NCBI GenBank assembly: GCA_024644745.1
Contig: JAHEHF010000034.1
Span: 1-32,524 of the forward strand
DNA from: Flavobacteriaceae bacterium
GTDB taxonomy: Bacteria; Bacteroidota; Bacteroidia; Flavobacteriales; Flavobacteriaceae
DNA: 32,524 nucleotides
Direction: 5' to 3'
How positions within the stretch are numbered: position 1 is the stretch's first letter; the number at the start of each line of letters is the position of its first letter. Below the pieces are notes generated by a model. The model did no database searches. It worked only from the letters and a program-made list of their open reading frames with translations, and was not told the DNA's origin. The translations under genes were made by a program, and so were the position numbers. This document shows, one piece after another, positions 601 to 26,258 of this stretch.

Positions 601-1617
601 ATGAACAAATTTAGCTGGTATGAAGCCAAATCCGTTGAAGATGCCATTCAACAGGTAAATTCGACTGTATCAGAGCAACTGTATGAATCAACCCAAGACG
701 CGGCCATCTTTAAATCGGGAGGTGTCGATGTGTTCGACTGGATAAAGGAAGGCTTGCTCAAGCCGCAGAAGATCATCAATATTCGGAACATTCCCGGACT
801 TGATAAGATCAGTTTCAACACAAAGGATGGATTGCGCATTGGCGCCAATGTTACCCTGGCCGAATTGGCTTCAAATCAGGAAGTCAAAGAAAAATATATG
901 GCTTTGCACCAGGCCGTAAATCACGCCGCAACTCCTCAGTTGCGGAATATGTCGACCCTGGGCGGTAATATTGCACAGCGCAACCGTTGCTGGTATTTTC
1001 GGTCTGCCGAACATCATTGCTTCCGCAAAGCAGGAGACCGATGCTTTGCCCGTCACTCTGAAACCGGTGAAAATGAGAATCATGCGATCATTGACAATGG
1101 TTCCTGCGTGAGCGTGCATGCCTCATCAATTTCAACGGCACTTATGGCCTTTAATGCCACTGTTATGATCTCAGGAGAAGATGGAAAGACTAAAAAGATT
1201 TCAATGGATGACTTTTTTGTCCGTGCAGGGCAGGATATTGTCATGGAAACCATACTCAAATCCAAGGAGATCATTACGGAAATCATTCTACCGGCTCCTG
1301 GAAAGAATACAAGGAGCGCTTATATCAAGCAGGTGGCACGGGAGTCATATGACTGGTCTTTGGGCGATGTGGCAGTGGTCATGGAAACATCGGGGAATAC
1401 ATGCAGATCGGCCAGCATTGTTTTAGGGGCTGCAGCACCCGTACCATTCCGGTCAGGACAGGCCGAAAAGGCGATGGAAGGCAAGGATATCAATGCTCAA
1501 AATGCTGCGGCTGCAGCAGAAGCAGCCATGTCGGTTGCACGTCCGCTTTCGAAAAATGGCTATAAAGTTCCCCTGTTTAAATCGATCATCAAACAAGCCA
1601 TTCTGGATATCACTTAA
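601..1617 (+). CDS. Xanthine dehydrogenase-family FAD-binding subunit with a probable [4Fe-4S] loop
   Basis: 338 aa, the usual length for the FAD-binding (subunit M, CoxM-like) partner of molybdenum hydroxylases. The flavin-binding domain spans roughly residues 1-210, with FKSGG near 37-41 and the STLGGNIAQ motif at 118-126; the CO-dehydrogenase flavoprotein C-terminal domain covers about 215-330. Just after the flavin motif there is an inserted loop with four cysteines at 130, 140, 148 and 169 (RNRCWYFR, HHCFRKAGDRC, GSCVSVH). This layout is the one known from HcrB of 4-hydroxybenzoyl-CoA reductase and PaoB of the E. coli periplasmic aldehyde oxidoreductase, where the loop holds a [4Fe-4S] cluster. 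The gene lies between the molybdopterin subunit and a small Cys-rich gene that starts 3 nt after its stop. The cluster is inferred, not seen. Confidence 0.9.
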   Translation: MNKFSWYEAKSVEDAIQQVNSTVSEQLYESTQDAAIFKSGGVDVFDWIKEGLLKPQKIINIRNIPGLDKISFNTKDGLRIGANVTLAELASNQEVKEKYMALHQAVNHAATPQLRNMSTLGGNIAQRNRCWYFRSAEHHCFRKAGDRCFARHSETGENENHAIIDNGSCVSVHASSISTALMAFNATVMISGEDGKTKKISMDDFFVRAGQDIVMETILKSKEIITEIILPAPGKNTRSAYIKQVARESYDWSLGDVAVVMETSGNTCRSASIVLGAAAPVPFRSGQAEKAMEGKDINAQNAAAAAEAAMSVARPLSKNGYKVPLFKSIIKQAILDIT

Positions 1618-10274: not shown

Positions 10275-12476
10275 TTGAAAAAACTTGAACGCAGTTTAAA
10301 TTTAACTTCAGTAATTGCGATCAGCATAGGTGGCATGCTTGGAAGTGGCATTTTTGTCCTTCCCGGAATCGCTGCGGCAAAAACAGGCTCCTCGATCTGG
10401 CTGGCCTATTTGCTTGCAGCAGTATGCATCCTGCCCGCGGCACTTTCAAAATCTGAACTGGCTACTGCCATGCCCTCATCAGGAGGTACTTATCTCTATA
10501 TTGAAAGGGCCTTTGGACCGATTTTCGGGACCATTGCCGGATTGGGTTTGTGGCTCTCTCTTTTGTTGAAAAGCGCTTTTGCCCTTGTTGGATTTGGCGC
10601 CTACCTTTCTATATTGGCCAATGCCTCCAATGGTTTTACCAAGTACATTTCCTTGTTCTTTCTTCTGATCATTTTGTTTCTCAATATTAACGGTGTGAAA
10701 AAAGTAGGGAAGGTGCAAATTGTTGTGGTGAGTATTTCTTTGATCACACTGGTAACCCTTTTTATTTTTGGTGTACCTGAAGTGGATCCGGTTTTGCTGG
10801 ATCCATTTTATTCTGACGGTTCCGTGGGCCTGATCTCTACGGTGGCTTTTGTTTATATTTCTTATGCCGGGGTGACCAAGGTTGCTGCCATTGCCGGAGA
10901 AATCAAGAATCCAAGCAAGAACCTGCCCAGGGCTATGATACTTTCTTTATTTATCATGACCATGATTTACGTGTTCATTGCTTTTACCCTCGTAGGGAAT
11001 ATTCCTATGGAGACCCTGGGCACTGACCTCAAACCCATTTACACCCTGGGTGAAATTCTTGGTGGTTCGTACGTAGGTTACGCGGTGGCCATTGTTGGGG
11101 TGATCACCCTGATCTCTATGGCCAATTCAGGAGTGCTGGCGGCATCCCGCTTCCCTTTTGCCATGGCGATTGACAAGTTGCTTCCTGAATTTGTTGGAAA
11201 GATTCATTCCAGGTTCCTGACACCCGTGTGGGCCATTGTGCTGACTTGTCTGACCATGGCACTGGTGATCCTGTTTCTGGATGTTGAAAAGATTGCCAAA
11301 CTGGCTTCGGCTTTTATGGTCATGATGTTCATTTCAGTAAATCTTTGTGTGGTGATCTTAAGAGAGACTTCTGCACAATGGTACAATCCGACCTATAAAT
11401 CACCTTTATATCCCTTTGTTCAAATATTTGGAATTGTATCAGGCATCATACTCCTGATATTTCTTGGCTTTCTTCCTTTTGTGTCTATACTGACCATTTT
11501 CATCATTGGTTTTGTCATTTATCATTATATCGGAAAAAAGACGGCCAGAACAGGGGTGTTGCGAAAATACGGGCACAGACCAGCGCTTTATCTTTTGTAT
11601 AAAAAGAAAAAAAACGGTCAAAGAGAATACAGTAATGGAGAAAAGATCAACAATCCAGTTCTGGACGGTAAGATTGCTTCAGACGCAGGGGTAGTGATCC
11701 CGCTGCTGGGAAATGAAAAATCTCCTGAAATGCTGGTGGAAATAGGTGCCGCACTGAACAAAAAGGAGATCACTCAAACGGTACACATTACCGAGGTCCC
11801 GAACCAGACTTTTCTGGATGCTGTCATGGAAGAAAATCCGATGATCCATTCTCTGGGGCGCCGATTCAGCGGGCTGGCAAAGGCAAGAAAGGTGAAATTG
11901 GATTTTGAAGCGGTTGTTACCCATGACCTTTCAGAGACCATTAGGGAGCTTAGTGAGCAAACCCATTGTGACTGGATGGTCATGGGCTGGGATGCCAGGG
12001 CTCATAAAGGCTTGCTGGTGCGCAACCCGATAGGGTGGTTCGTTACCCATGTGAACTCAGATTTTGCCTTGTTCCGTGATAATGGGGTAAGACATATTTC
12101 AAAGGTGGTCATGGCCCTCAGGCCCGGAAGAAAGGACAAGAATTTTGTCGCCATTGCCGACAGGGTTTGTCTCTTCTACGGAGCTTCTCTCACCCTGCTT
12201 CATGTTGTGCCCGAATCAATGTCAGCTGATGCCGTTGAGAAAATGGAGATTGGATCAACCAACCTGCTGAAAAAGGCCAAAAGTGAATCCAAGGTATTGG
12301 TAAAGCATTCGAATGACCCCATTGAAAAGATCACTGATATGTCAGCAGAATACGACTTGCTGATCATTGGTACACCTGAAAAAGACAATTGGCAAAACGT
12401 TCTTTTTGGTAAAAACAAAGACAAATTTGCAGATCATTCTGTTTGTTCGGTCCTGCGTCTTACTGTAAAAGATTAA
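10275..12476 (+). CDS. APC-family amino acid permease with C-terminal universal stress protein domains
   Basis: 733 aa starting from TTG. The first ~430 residues are an amino acid-polyamine-organocation transporter with about twelve helices; the helix-1 substrate motif GGMLGSGIFVLPG is at 19-31. After a basic linker (near residues 425-455) the remaining ~270 residues are soluble and fall into two universal-stress-protein-like halves (about 465-600, beginning VVIPLLGNEKSPEML, and about 610-733, with LLIIGTPEKDNW near the nucleotide-binding end). Such fusions are known for APC and cation transporters and are thought to couple transport to adenine nucleotide or stress state; that role is inference. 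The stop is 6 nt from the end of the convergent dnaX tail. Substrate unknown. Confidence 0.88.
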   Translation: MKKLERSLNLTSVIAISIGGMLGSGIFVLPGIAAAKTGSSIWLAYLLAAVCILPAALSKSELATAMPSSGGTYLYIERAFGPIFGTIAGLGLWLSLLLKSAFALVGFGAYLSILANASNGFTKYISLFFLLIILFLNINGVKKVGKVQIVVVSISLITLVTLFIFGVPEVDPVLLDPFYSDGSVGLISTVAFVYISYAGVTKVAAIAGEIKNPSKNLPRAMILSLFIMTMIYVFIAFTLVGNIPMETLGTDLKPIYTLGEILGGSYVGYAVAIVGVITLISMANSGVLAASRFPFAMAIDKLLPEFVGKIHSRFLTPVWAIVLTCLTMALVILFLDVEKIAKLASAFMVMMFISVNLCVVILRETSAQWYNPTYKSPLYPFVQIFGIVSGIILLIFLGFLPFVSILTIFIIGFVIYHYIGKKTARTGVLRKYGHRPALYLLYKKKKNGQREYSNGEKINNPVLDGKIASDAGVVIPLLGNEKSPEMLVEIGAALNKKEITQTVHITEVPNQTFLDAVMEENPMIHSLGRRFSGLAKARKVKLDFEAVVTHDLSETIRELSEQTHCDWMVMGWDARAHKGLLVRNPIGWFVTHVNSDFALFRDNGVRHISKVVMALRPGRKDKNFVAIADRVCLFYGASLTLLHVVPESMSADAVEKMEIGSTNLLKKAKSESKVLVKHSNDPIEKITDMSAEYDLLIIGTPEKDNWQNVLFGKNKDKFADHSVCSVLRLTVKD

Positions 12477-12482
12477 ATGGGG

Positions 12483-13199
12483 TCAGAGATCCAGGTTAAA
12501 GGTTTTGCGAAGCAGCGAGATGTCTTTATTTTTTTCTTTGAGCAATTCGTATTTTTCCTGGGGTGTATAGGCAAACCTTTTTGAAGTATCTTCATTAACT
12601 CTGATTTCAAAATCAATACTGTAATTGTTCAGGGCTTTTCTAATGTGTTTCAGTACTTTGGGCCTTACTTTTAAAAGCTCAAGTTTCATCATCTCATTCG
12701 GATAACTCAGCTGAATCAGGTGTCCTTTTAATCCGGGGGCATCTGCTTTTAGGATAGAAGCAAGAATTTTCTCCCCTTTGTCGTGCAGTGATTCCACATA
12801 GTCAGTCCAGACCTTGATAAAAGCTTCCTTGGAGAACGGATCCTGTGGAAGGTCCTTGGGGGAAACTTTTGCGGCCTCCATGCTTTTAGCCTTCGCTTCT
12901 TCTTCCTTTTTTCGCTTTAAACTCGATAAAGACAAGGCTGAGTTTCTTCTTCCGGAAGGTTGAATTGCCTTTGGTTTCAACGGCTTGGGAGTGGGTGGTG
13001 CTTTGATCGGTTCAGCCGGAGTAGATTTAATTTTTTCTGTTGGTGTTTTATCTGATGCCCGTAAAGCGGGTTCAGGTCTGTTTCTCTTTACAGTAACCGG
13101 TTCCTCAATTTTTTCCACAGAATGTGTGGTCAAAAAATGAATGGAGGGAATTATAAAACGTTTAGATTTTTTTTTTGCCATCAAAAGTGATGGATGCAA
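12483..13199 (-). CDS. dnaX: Tau-like C-terminal part of DNA polymerase III subunit DnaX, in a different frame from the N-terminal part
   Basis: 238-codon frame overlapping the end of the DnaX ATPase gene by 38 nt. It has the features of the C-terminal region of flavobacterial DnaX: a KSKRFIIPSIHF entry segment, a long Pro/Lys-rich linker (about residues 40-110), then a folded end (about 120-238) that finishes with KYELLKEKNKDISLLRKTFNLDL. The likely reading is not independent translation but entry from the upstream frame: removing one A from the A10 run at 13167-13176 fuses the two into a single protein of about 585 aa. An ATG at 13181-13179 (reading MAKKKSKRF) could also allow separate initiation. 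Whether it is a pseudogene-like break, a slippage product or a sequencing error cannot be settled here. Confidence 0.75.
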   Translation of the reverse strand: MHPSLLMAKKKSKRFIIPSIHFLTTHSVEKIEEPVTVKRNRPEPALRASDKTPTEKIKSTPAEPIKAPPTPKPLKPKAIQPSGRRNSALSLSSLKRKKEEEAKAKSMEAAKVSPKDLPQDPFSKEAFIKVWTDYVESLHDKGEKILASILKADAPGLKGHLIQLSYPNEMMKLELLKVRPKVLKHIRKALNNYSIDFEIRVNEDTSKRFAYTPQEKYELLKEKNKDISLLRKTFNLDL

Positions 13200-14241
13200 T
13201 TTTCATTAAAGACAGTTCAATCAGCAGGCGCCGGTTTTTGCTCGCCTTGTAGTTCAGATCGCATTCGTTGGCCAGGTCAATCGAACGCATCAAAAAGCGC
13301 AGGTCAGCCTTTTTTGATTGTTCCAGGTATTGTTTTTTAGCGGCATCTCCAACCTCCAGCAATTGAGTTGTTGCCGGATCCTTGGCCACCAGAAGGTCCC
13401 TGAAATGGGAGGCCAGTCCGTTGATAAAATGATGTCCTTCAAAACCTTTGGCCATGATATTGTTCAAAGAAACCAGCACCTGGGGGATATTGTTGTCCAA
13501 AAGCAGGTCCGTTACCTGAAAATAGACGTCATAATCAAGAACGTTGAGATTTTCTGAAACGGCTTTTCTCGTAAGGTTCGTGCCTGAATAACTCACGACC
13601 CGGTCAAAAATGGACAAGGCATCTCTCAAAGCGCCATCGGCCTTTTGGGCAATGATATGCAGGGCATCATCTTCGGCCTCAATTTTTTCATCTTTAGCAA
13701 TATAATGAAGGTAATTTTTGATATCGAGGACTCCAATTCGTTTAAAATCAAAGATCTGACATCTGGAAAGGATGGTGGGTATGATTTTGTGCTTCTCGGT
13801 TGTCGCCAGGATGAAGATCGCATGGGCCGGCGGTTCTTCCAGGGTTTTCAAAAAGGCGTTAAAGGCAGACTGCGACAGCATGTGCACCTCATCTATGATA
13901 TAGACTTTAAATTTTCCAGTTTGCGGCGGAATCCTGACCTGGTCATTCAGTGTTCTGATGTCTTCCACAGAGTTGTTGGAAGCCGCATCAAGTTCGAAGA
14001 TGTTAAATGCAAAATCCTCGTCTTCAGGGTGCTGCTCCATGCTTTCCTGGTTGATCCTTTTGGCAAGTATCCTTGCGCAGGTCGTTTTGCCAACCCCTCT
14101 CGGGCCTGTAAATAAAAGCGCCTGTGCCAGATGGTTATTCTTTATAGCATTTTCCAGGGTGTTCGTAATGGCCTCCTGGCCTACGACATCACCAAATACC
14201 TGTGGTCGGTATTTTCGGGCTGATACTATAAAATGTTCCAT
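13162..14241 (-). CDS. dnaX: DNA polymerase III subunit gamma (DnaX clamp-loader ATPase, domains I-III)
   Basis: 359 aa as read. It opens and loads the sliding clamp as part of the clamp loader. Motifs in order: Walker A GPRGVGKTT at 46-54, Walker B IIDEVHML, the SRCQIFDF sensor region, and the domain III helical collar ending in LLIELSLMKIASITFDG. The four-cysteine zinc module present in E. coli DnaX (between Walker A and the ELDAASNN stretch) is missing: the corresponding segment has no cysteine. The frame ends with KKKI and a TAA right after ten A residues, exactly where domain III stops. This is the shape of the shorter gamma form. A promoter with TTG-N20-TACATTTG lies just upstream, which supports the ATG at 14241. 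Confidence 0.93.
   Translation of the reverse strand: MEHFIVSARKYRPQVFGDVVGQEAITNTLENAIKNNHLAQALLFTGPRGVGKTTCARILAKRINQESMEQHPEDEDFAFNIFELDAASNNSVEDIRTLNDQVRIPPQTGKFKVYIIDEVHMLSQSAFNAFLKTLEEPPAHAIFILATTEKHKIIPTILSRCQIFDFKRIGVLDIKNYLHYIAKDEKIEAEDDALHIIAQKADGALRDALSIFDRVVSYSGTNLTRKAVSENLNVLDYDVYFQVTDLLLDNNIPQVLVSLNNIMAKGFEGHHFINGLASHFRDLLVAKDPATTQLLEVGDAAKKQYLEQSKKADLRFLMRSIDLANECDLNYKASKNRRLLIELSLMKIASITFDGKKKI
13167..13176 (-). other. dnaX: A10 slippery run within dnaX
   Basis: Ten consecutive A residues on the coding (minus) strand, preceded by GGC and followed by TCTAAACG. In frame it reads GGC AAA AAA AAA ATC TAA (stop); with nine A residues it reads on into the tail frame (KKKSKRF). Homopolymers of this kind cause RNA-polymerase slippage in Thermus dnaX, and E. 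coli dnaX uses ribosomal slippage at A AAA AAG. Confidence 0.8.
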
Positions 14242-23414: not shown

Positions 23415-26258
23415 TCAATAGAATCCCCTTTTGATGAGGTTGTAAATTCTGACAGGATCAATGGTCAGTACAAACCTGATCCTGCTTGCATAATCAGACA
23501 TGCCCGGTTCAAAGCCAAGACTGGATTGCAAGGGGAAGTAAAATTCCAGAAAATTATGAACAAAATTGAGCCGGATGCCGCTGTCATATTTGAAACGGGC
23601 CTTTGCGCCACGGTCCTTTAAAAAACCTGCATCTCCATAGAGTTCGATCCATCGCCAGATGCCAATGCTGAAATTGGAAGTAAGCATCCACTGGTTGGCA
23701 TATTGGTCCTCAAAGGCCGATTTGAACCCTCCTTCAGTAATAATAACCTGCTGGCTTAAAAAACCTGAATCCTCCGACCTGCCCAGATAATTGAGATCAA
23801 ACATATAATCACTAGGGCGGTCTAAGGCAAAGCTGAAAAAGTCAGTGTCGGTAGTGTTGTTCAAAAAGGAACCGAAATACAATCTGAAATCCAGATACCT
23901 GTCAATATCTGTCAGTTTGCGATACCTCAGGTCAAGCGAAACCTTGCTGAATTCATTGTGGTATTGAAAATCTGTAAAATACCTGAGATCGTTTATGATT
24001 TCCGGTTTTGAATAAGCATAGCGAATATTGAACACATTGTACTGGTAGGTCTCAGGTTCGGTTACATTTTCCGGTAATTCCTTATCCACGCCTACAAGTC
24101 GCGCCACCAGACTTTGTCCGCCGACGTCCCTTAAACTTTTTCTTTTAAAATCTATCCTGAAAAAGGGAGTGTACTTATTGAAGGTAAGGTCATTGTCGTA
24201 ATGGGATCTGCTCGCAGCAAATCCGGCACGATAACGATAAATGCTGGTTTCTTCCGGCAGGTGTTCGTAGGCCAGTGACAATGATCCGGTAATGACATTG
24301 CTTTTAAAACCATAGAGGGGCGCTAAGGAGTAAAGCCATTTTTTCTTAAACAAGGCCTGGTTGTAGATGTTGGGTCCTAATAAAAATCCATCATAAAAAT
24401 TATAGGCGATCAAAGGCTTGTAGAAGACCTGGTTGTAATGAGGGTCTTCAATATCCCTGTAAAAAGTAAGTTTTACAGGCCGGTTGAATAATTTTTTATC
24501 AAGCCTTTCCCAGTTGTCTCTCAGGTTGGTTTCCGGATAGAGGTATTCAAAGTTCAGACTCAACCTGTCAATGTTATTTTTTGAAACAGTCACTATTTTT
24601 TCACTGGGAATGGGCTCAAACCATTCTTTGAATACAATCTTTCTCTTGTCAATTCCGTATAAAGTGATCGGGGCACTAAAGTTACTTTTGTTTGTGATCT
24701 TAACCTTGACCGAATCGCCTTCAGTCTCAACTTTTTTAAGGGTATAATTAATTTTTTTTCTCGTTTTCAGATAATCATTGAAGTACCAGTCCAGGTTTTT
24801 GTCTGTTTTTCCTTTGAGAATTTCATTGAACTGATCACTTTTGGAAAATAAAAGTACGTTTTGCGTATAGTAATCTTTCAAACTGCTTCTGATGATGCTG
24901 TCATTTAAATAAGATTCAAGGTAACGCAGCCCCAGGCCCGATTTGTATCGATTGACCAGTTTTAAATTGAAATTTGACAAGGAGTCCGACCGGGTTGTCA
25001 AAGCCTGGTCCAGTTGATTTCTCGCTGAAAATTGATAGACAAAAGGATATTTGCCGTTAAAATCCAGTTTTGAGATATTGAACCTGTTGATTCCCCATTT
25101 TTTAGAAATGTTTCCGATCGCTTTGACCTCAGGATAATATTCTTTTACATAGGCCATCATCAGGTAGATCTGAATCCCGTCAGGTAACCAGGCGTCCTCT
25201 CTTTTGTTCAGGATCAGGGTATTTTCAATATAGCGGCCGCTTAAGGCTTTGAACAATTTGATGTCCCACTCAAAGATGTCCGAAAAGGGATTCATTTTTT
25301 TTGGCAACTGGTTGAACCCGTAAACAGGCTGTTTGAGATAAGATGTCCTGTTCACCAGAAGCTTGTCATGGGGATAAGCCCCGAGATAGGCATCAATAAA
25401 ATCAAGCTGCCTCTGTATCACGTCCGTTTTTATATTTTCGGTAAGGTTCTTGCTCTGCAAATTTGTAATGATTTCCGGACCACTTGACTGGTATACAGAG
25501 AAATCATTTTTGAGCTGTATATTTAGTTCTATATCCAGTCTGTTGCTGCCCTGAAGTTTGTAAAGTACCTGTTTTTCTTCCAGACTCACTTCGCTGTTCA
25601 AGTCAGTGTTCAGGGTGTATCCCATGGGTATCCTGAAATTGATATGATAATCACTGGGCCGTACATAGTAATCATCCATGTTCAAGTTGGATAATAAATA
25701 CCATTTGTTATCGAAAACTGCCGGGGTGATATGCCAGTAGCGTAAATTATAATTGGTCCCGTTCTGTCCGTATCGCGTGAACTTGTCAATGGGAATCTTT
25801 ACCTCATACCTCAGCCTGATATCAATTGAATCTCCCGGTGCCAAAGATGCAGGCAACAGGACTTTGACAAGATCACTTGCCATATCAGGAACTTCGAATA
25901 TGAGATCTTTGTCCTTATGTCTTATATTTTCAATCCTGGAATAGCCCCGGTCTTTCGGTTTGGCAAAATGCAGCGATTTGTTGTAGTTCTCGATCAGCCT
26001 TTTTGACAAGGGGGTGTTCCGGTCTTTATAGCCGTTTGCCCAATTCAGTAAGTACAGGGTGTCAAGCGCGGTCTCTGAGACATTGTAATAAGTAATCTCC
26101 TGTTGGACCATCAATTTATTGCCCTCCACCAATTCAGCATCAATCATGATCTTATTGTTCTGTGCGAAGAAAATAAGAGGCATAAAACATAAAATCGTAT
26201 GTATGATACTTTTATGAGGCAAGATTCTGGTTTTATCTTTGGGTTGTAAACGAATCAA
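23415..26258 (-). CDS. M1-peptidase-like domain joined to a C-terminal outer-membrane beta-barrel, zinc site missing
   Basis: 947 aa, read from TTG 26258, which overlaps the stop of the LOG gene by 4 nt. A signal peptide covers about 14-33 (ending FAQ). Residues about 35-560 follow the layout of M1 aminopeptidases: an N-terminal beta domain (about 40-255), then the thermolysin-like region. The zinc motif HExxH is replaced by KALSG at 337-341, and the downstream WLNEG glutamate motif reads WLPDG at 357-361, so no metal site can form. From about 610 on, alternating aromatic/polar beta-strands (LDLRYRKLTDIDRYLDFRLY and similar) end in a terminal strand RIYNLIKRGFY, as in an outer-membrane barrel. 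The function is unknown; peptide or polymer binding at the cell surface is inference. Confidence 0.8.
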   Translation of the reverse strand: MIRLQPKDKTRILPHKSIIHTILCFMPLIFFAQNNKIMIDAELVEGNKLMVQQEITYYNVSETALDTLYLLNWANGYKDRNTPLSKRLIENYNKSLHFAKPKDRGYSRIENIRHKDKDLIFEVPDMASDLVKVLLPASLAPGDSIDIRLRYEVKIPIDKFTRYGQNGTNYNLRYWHITPAVFDNKWYLLSNLNMDDYYVRPSDYHINFRIPMGYTLNTDLNSEVSLEEKQVLYKLQGSNRLDIELNIQLKNDFSVYQSSGPEIITNLQSKNLTENIKTDVIQRQLDFIDAYLGAYPHDKLLVNRTSYLKQPVYGFNQLPKKMNPFSDIFEWDIKLFKALSGRYIENTLILNKREDAWLPDGIQIYLMMAYVKEYYPEVKAIGNISKKWGINRFNISKLDFNGKYPFVYQFSARNQLDQALTTRSDSLSNFNLKLVNRYKSGLGLRYLESYLNDSIIRSSLKDYYTQNVLLFSKSDQFNEILKGKTDKNLDWYFNDYLKTRKKINYTLKKVETEGDSVKVKITNKSNFSAPITLYGIDKRKIVFKEWFEPIPSEKIVTVSKNNIDRLSLNFEYLYPETNLRDNWERLDKKLFNRPVKLTFYRDIEDPHYNQVFYKPLIAYNFYDGFLLGPNIYNQALFKKKWLYSLAPLYGFKSNVITGSLSLAYEHLPEETSIYRYRAGFAASRSHYDNDLTFNKYTPFFRIDFKRKSLRDVGGQSLVARLVGVDKELPENVTEPETYQYNVFNIRYAYSKPEIINDLRYFTDFQYHNEFSKVSLDLRYRKLTDIDRYLDFRLYFGSFLNNTTDTDFFSFALDRPSDYMFDLNYLGRSEDSGFLSQQVIITEGGFKSAFEDQYANQWMLTSNFSIGIWRWIELYGDAGFLKDRGAKARFKYDSGIRLNFVHNFLEFYFPLQSSLGFEPGMSDYASRIRFVLTIDPVRIYNLIKRGFY

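Follow-up and report, generated by a model that had tools for sequence, protein, structure and literature searches.

Two sizes of DnaX from one gene are established for Thermus thermophilus, whose RNA polymerase slips on a run of nine As (Larsen et al. 2000, as described in PMC1088944 and PMC5009743), and are also the outcome in E. coli, where −1 ribosomal frameshifting at A_AAA_AAG, with an SD-like motif and a stem-loop, gives gamma (PMC3711429, PMC5009743). In the Thermus gene the poly-A is at the gamma/tau boundary with stops in both other frames, and the frame written in the DNA is that of tau, so that slippage yields gamma. Antonov et al. (2013; PMC3711429) report 17 dnaX genes from 12 genera that comprise two ORFs, all of the −1 type and nine with an A10 run, and propose transcriptional realignment for them; overlap of the nine A10 species with the Bacteroidota is possible and likely. 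Section 10 of that paper has the rule that existence of both directions among orthologues points to transcriptional realignment. In Blochmannia, poly-A frameshifts include an indel in dnaX that is thought to be bypassed by slippage (PMC3017870). A 2012 review (PMC3290774) describes most other bacteria as lacking a dnaX frameshift signature and as perhaps making no gamma.

The case considered here is in a window of 32,524 nt, the window being the whole stretch of Flavobacteriaceae bacterium DNA analysed (assembly GCA_024644745.1, contig JAHEHF010000034.1). On its minus strand a gamma-like dnaX ORF of 359 codons (13162–14241), specifying ATPase, lid and domain III, runs from an ATG at 14241 to ATC ACT TTT GAT GGC AAA AAA AAA ATC TAA, i.e. 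it ends KKKI-stop, with its ten As at 13167–13176 (ten Ts on the plus strand). The TAA of the templated frame (13162–13164) starts 2 nt past the run, and that of the third frame, entered with one extra A, starts 13 nt past it (13151–13153) within TTT ATA ATT (Phe-Ile-Ile); both non-tau frames are thus closed shortly after the run, as in Thermus. The +1 frame continues as TCT AAA CGT TTT ATA ATT and onward to a stop at 12483–12485, giving a tau-type tail of 227 aa plus stop (12483–13166). Also in the tail frame, just upstream of the run, is an ATG (13179–13181). That dnaX is split at this A10 is real and confirmed, and the initial annotation's description of a 359-aa product, an other-frame tail and a joined protein of about 585 aa stands, the sum being 358 + 227 = 585.

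Against NF011531 (DNA polymerase III gamma/tau), the N part matches positions 1–367 (E 3.5e-189) and the tail on its own positions 413–613 (E 9.1e-21), with neither alone reaching the whole-protein cut-off of 685 bits. The N part scores 385.5 bits against TIGR02397 (cut-off 250) and has Pfam matches to PF13177, PF22608 and PF12169, so that clamp-loader ATPase, lid and domain III are all present; the tau-specific C-terminal part is recognized through the NF011531 match of the tail. For the C-terminal domain of the tail (12486–12863, limits approximate), a likely counterpart of tau domain V from that profile and its position, the domain V name is a lead, and only that, because the PDB, fold and Pfam searches gave weak results. 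A PDB profile search with the tail yielded no clamp-loader match (best E 0.084), and a fold search gave nothing at E ≤ 0.001, DciA and DnaA domain I being best and the E. coli replicase 5fku ranking eighth (E 0.41); likeness to E. coli domain V is thus not significant by either search. Pfam searches with 58 tails detected DnaX_C in 4, tau_5 in 1 and DNA_pol3_a_NII in 11, all weakly, and none of the three in the window's own tail. In the 3.14-Mb genome (138 contigs) the N part and the tail are each represented by a single full-strength copy; no second intact dnaX or second tail was found in it. Among its 13 distinct runs of ten or more As (15 overlapping matches), the one in dnaX is the sole run flanked on either side by over 100 open codons, which exceeds what chance would give; another (L050) has 92 and 75, which look non-coding.

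In comparison with the described systems, two-ORF poly-A dnaX is a kind already known (PMC3711429), the resemblance being a gamma ORF ending at poly-A with tau encoded by a second ORF accessed through recoding. The suggestion in the initial annotation that slippage would be a novelty in this group is not supported. There are, however, differences. All 17 of the genes of Antonov et al. are −1, while the tail in the window is +1, and the method described there did not extend to fused genes carrying this run and these stops; the −1 direction of that set does occur in 66 other Bacteroidia junctions. Unlike Thermus, whose genomic frame encodes tau directly, the DNA frame in the window leads to gamma and slippage would be needed for tau, though fused Bacteroidia dnaX genes do have the Thermus layout. 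The Blochmannia dnaX case differs in that its indel is downstream, in the tau-only part, in reduced symbiont genomes, and is not a gamma/tau switch. Within the open-access articles searched, no paper on Bacteroidota dnaX slippage other than PMC3711429 was found, nor any account of the +1 direction, of run plus paired stops in fused Bacteroidia dnaX, or of frame drift.

The extent of retention of the run was assessed from N-part searches of 299 family, 118 order, 158 class and 198 phylum genomes, partly overlapping, and from 80 named loci, with 140 junction stretches being fetched. Of 307 junctions anchored, 7 duplicates were dropped (the Flavicella marina junction, for instance, duplicating L058) and 300 kept, the tail being uncalled in 13. 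A run of at least nine As at the end of domain III is present in 269 of 282 class-Bacteroidia junctions, i.e. in 22/22 of the genus sample, 65/65 and 73/73 of those from the family, 47/51 from the order and 62/71 from the class, though since many sequences are related these counts are not of independent events. Every one of the 160 Flavobacteriaceae junctions, genus included, has it; in the rest of the phylum, beyond the class, the share falls to 6 of 18. The remaining parts of these genes contain 11 comparable runs over 326,736 nt, a chance level of approximately 0.0066 per search window. Lengths cluster at 9–11, with exactly ten As in 206/282 and 7–8 in just 5/282, and all four stretches with a GC content of 60% or more (GC being that of the fetched stretch) retain a run of at least nine. 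In a sample of 48 class families, each represented by a single genome for which coordinates were available and selected blind to phase, 40 have the run; the eight representatives without it (L280, L288, L295, L296, L299, L308, L310 and L313) are among the 13 of 282 Bacteroidia junctions that lack it. A gamma/tau boundary marked by approximately nine or more As, and retained among relatives, is therefore a feature shared with the Thermus type. Where the initial annotation had set fused relatives without conservation of the run as evidence against its proposal, the opposite was found, with the run being conserved in fused genes.

A stop within 21 nt in both non-tau frames is present in 228 of 267 scored junctions, whereas control positions within those tails have it in 18%, and in fused genes alone the figure is 149/170. 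Taken singly, the two frames have such a stop in 244/267 and 250/267, with controls at 42% and 47%. In Flavobacteriaceae an Ile-Ile or Ile-Val motif soon after the run is found in 138 of 155 scored junctions, and its first isoleucine codon is ATA in 135 of the 138, as against 606 of 2187 isoleucine codons (28%) in the rest of the tails; the motif's ATA creates the TAA of one alternative frame. From this preference and the pairing of near stops it follows that stops encountered solely in shifted translation are under selection, and this includes those in fused genes of ordinary appearance.

The genomic frame across the run varies. With the frame of the tail called by means of a profile of tails, the 282 Bacteroidia junctions have the tail in frame in 177, requiring one A fewer in 30 (as in the window) and one A more in 66, with 9 uncalled. 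These are not population frequencies, because 14 of the 20 stretches of one family set were chosen for looking split and the 73 named junctions are from nearest relatives. The statement in the initial annotation that related genes are plain single ORFs is not supported: many are split, in both directions, and those that are single ORFs share the run and the nearby stops. Named split cases include Bizionia argentinensis, Lacinutrix mariniflava, Flagellimonas amoyensis, Wenyingzhuangia aestuarii and Flavicella marina, and for Flagellimonas and Lacinutrix there are fused relatives too. On a FastTree tree of 154 N parts, which is rough, being of one protein, at least 17 changes of phase are needed, 13 of them among the 134 Flavobacteriaceae rows. 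When phase labels were shuffled 100 times the mean was 40 changes and the least 36, so that phase is clustered on the tree, and the drift is therefore slow rather than free.

Added to the anatomy, conservation, occurrence of both directions, paired stops and tail selection observed here, the proposal that we consider well founded, and in which our confidence is high, is that the A10 is a programmed site for RNA polymerase slippage of the Thermus type, which would permit synthesis of both gamma and tau regardless of the frame in the DNA. RNA polymerase stuttering on the run would generate dnaX mRNAs of varying A number. Those with the templated ten As, or with 11, would direct ribosomes to the stop 2 or 13 nt on to give gamma of 359 or 363 aa, and on those with 9 or 12 translation would proceed through the tail, for a tau of 585 or 586 aa. 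The genomic frame could then drift between in frame, one A too many and one too few, with the run and the stops of the other frames being kept; it would matter little because the mRNA pool would hold all three phases. The initial annotation's suggestion of gamma-like and tau-like products by Thermus-like slippage is supported. Slippage by RNA polymerase rather than by the ribosome is favoured by the presence of both directions, run lengths of 9–11, the paired stops, the paucity of SD-like motifs and the lack of consistent structure; both proteins would then be made.

Ribosomes also slip on A runs, and the alternative that tau here is due to programmed ribosomal frameshifting (+1 or −2), comparable to the −1 event yielding gamma in E. 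coli, is considered improbable. A zero-frame A_AAA_AAA or A_AAA_AAG is present in nearly all scored junctions. The second of these is in 20 of 67 −1-phase junctions and 34 of 170 fused ones, and there a −1 ribosomal shift is possible. In the window, however, a −1 shift leads to the frame that stops 13 nt past the run, so that an E. coli-type event, also raised in the initial annotation, would miss the tail and not yield tau; +1 or −2 would be required. What is shared with E. coli is an A-rich site and two DnaX sizes from one gene, predicted in the case of the window, and what is not is direction and run length, with SD-like motifs being few (15 of 275 junctions) and a consistent downstream stem-loop lacking. 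The mean z for downstream RNA structure over 112 sequences is −0.37, i.e. without consistent signal, the window having −1.4 and single genes standing out, e.g. L028 at −2.6. Further points against ribosomal shifting are that both directions exist among orthologues, that 5 of 282 runs are 7–8 long with the norm being 9–11, and that selection maintains stops in each of the alternative frames. (Of other signals, a promoter scan returned 5 against a shuffle mean of 3.6, inside the range of the shuffles, and no terminator-like site was found, shuffles averaging 2.7.) A single mechanism for all Bacteroidia dnaX is nevertheless spoken against by the A_AAA_AAG counts and by L236 and L237, split genes from the order sample with −1 phase. 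These lack a long run and have CCA AAA AAG TAG, the E. coli heptamer followed by an immediate stop; from its appearance their tau looks to be a product of ribosomal shifting, and a switch to it from slippage is possible. The 13 run-less Bacteroidia junctions, the low share of runs beyond the class and the clustering of phase on the tree also weigh against the slippage proposal.

A different type of explanation, rated as distinctly unlikely, dispenses with joined tau altogether and has the tail as a separate polypeptide, with re-initiation at the ATG at 13181–13179. All 14 of the +1-phase genus junctions with called tail frame do have an ATG in the open tail frame, which would permit re-initiation in the genus. 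That ATG is, though, a by-product of conserved Phe-Asp-Gly codons that are also present in fused relatives, an upstream start codon in the open tail frame is found in only 5 of the 67 −1-phase split genes, and in most called relatives (177/273) the tail is encoded fused.

Polymerase slippage, as opposed to simple loss of function, also accords with how the tail has evolved. In a genus sample of 22 genomes, the window's own included, 21 gave a total of 22 junctions, G010 giving two and G006 having no full-strength dnaX match and no junction. Sixteen of the 22 are split as GGC-A10-TC plus an immediate stop that differs by genome, being TAA, TAG or TGA; the other six keep the tail in frame, with A10 or A11, and all 22 have a run of at least nine As. 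Pairwise comparison of 14 split tails (91 pairs) gives a median pN/pS of 0.38 (maximum 0.53) at a median pS of 0.80, which is saturated, and over the last 130 columns pN/pS is 0.27 (maximum 0.34). The value for 12 N parts (66 pairs) is 0.11, i.e. slower evolution than that of the tail. The shifted tail has long been kept protein-coding under purifying selection. That the gene is decaying, or that the run is a chance poly-lysine tract without function, given that in most junctions read it codes for two or three lysines, is very hard to reconcile with this selection on the tail, with selection at the nucleotide level that favours stops in the two alternative frames and with retention of the run at 60–70% GC. 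Error of one A in sequencing or assembly, which the initial annotation had held to be a real alternative, and to which the error-prone nature of homopolymers and an own assembly of 138 contigs might seem to lend weight, is rejected and scarcely merits consideration because the identical A10 split is in 16 of 22 genus junctions, two of them in the one-contig genomes G004 and G021, with varied stop codons after it and saturated synonymous divergence among the split genes.

A broader reading, to which we give a little better than an even chance, is that Bacteroidia dnaX has no fixed frame across the run, the in-frame, +1 and −1 forms all giving gamma and tau, with near-neutral drift of frame and selection on the run and its two stops. 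If so, gamma production would be an old trait of most Bacteroidia instead of an oddity of Thermus and enterobacteria. With a slippage site across most of those sampled, the class as a whole would probably make both forms, implying strong selection for gamma. Nature would here offer a housekeeping gene whose protein is not dictated by its genomic frame, and with it a warning, since such genes are annotated as errors or pseudogenes. Comparison of fused, split and run-less lineages makes the question of what gamma is for a testable one.

Elsewhere in the window, a 947-aa ORF (23415–26258, minus strand) has no Pfam match at E ≤ 0.001. A gene for a molybdopterin dehydrogenase FAD-binding subunit (601–1617, plus strand; PF00941, PF03450) is followed by an ORF (1653–2066) that has no Pfam match and may not be a gene. 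Convergent with dnaX is a gene (10275–12476, plus strand) for an amino-acid permease (PF00324/PF13520) fused to a universal-stress-protein domain (PF00582, residues 628–727).
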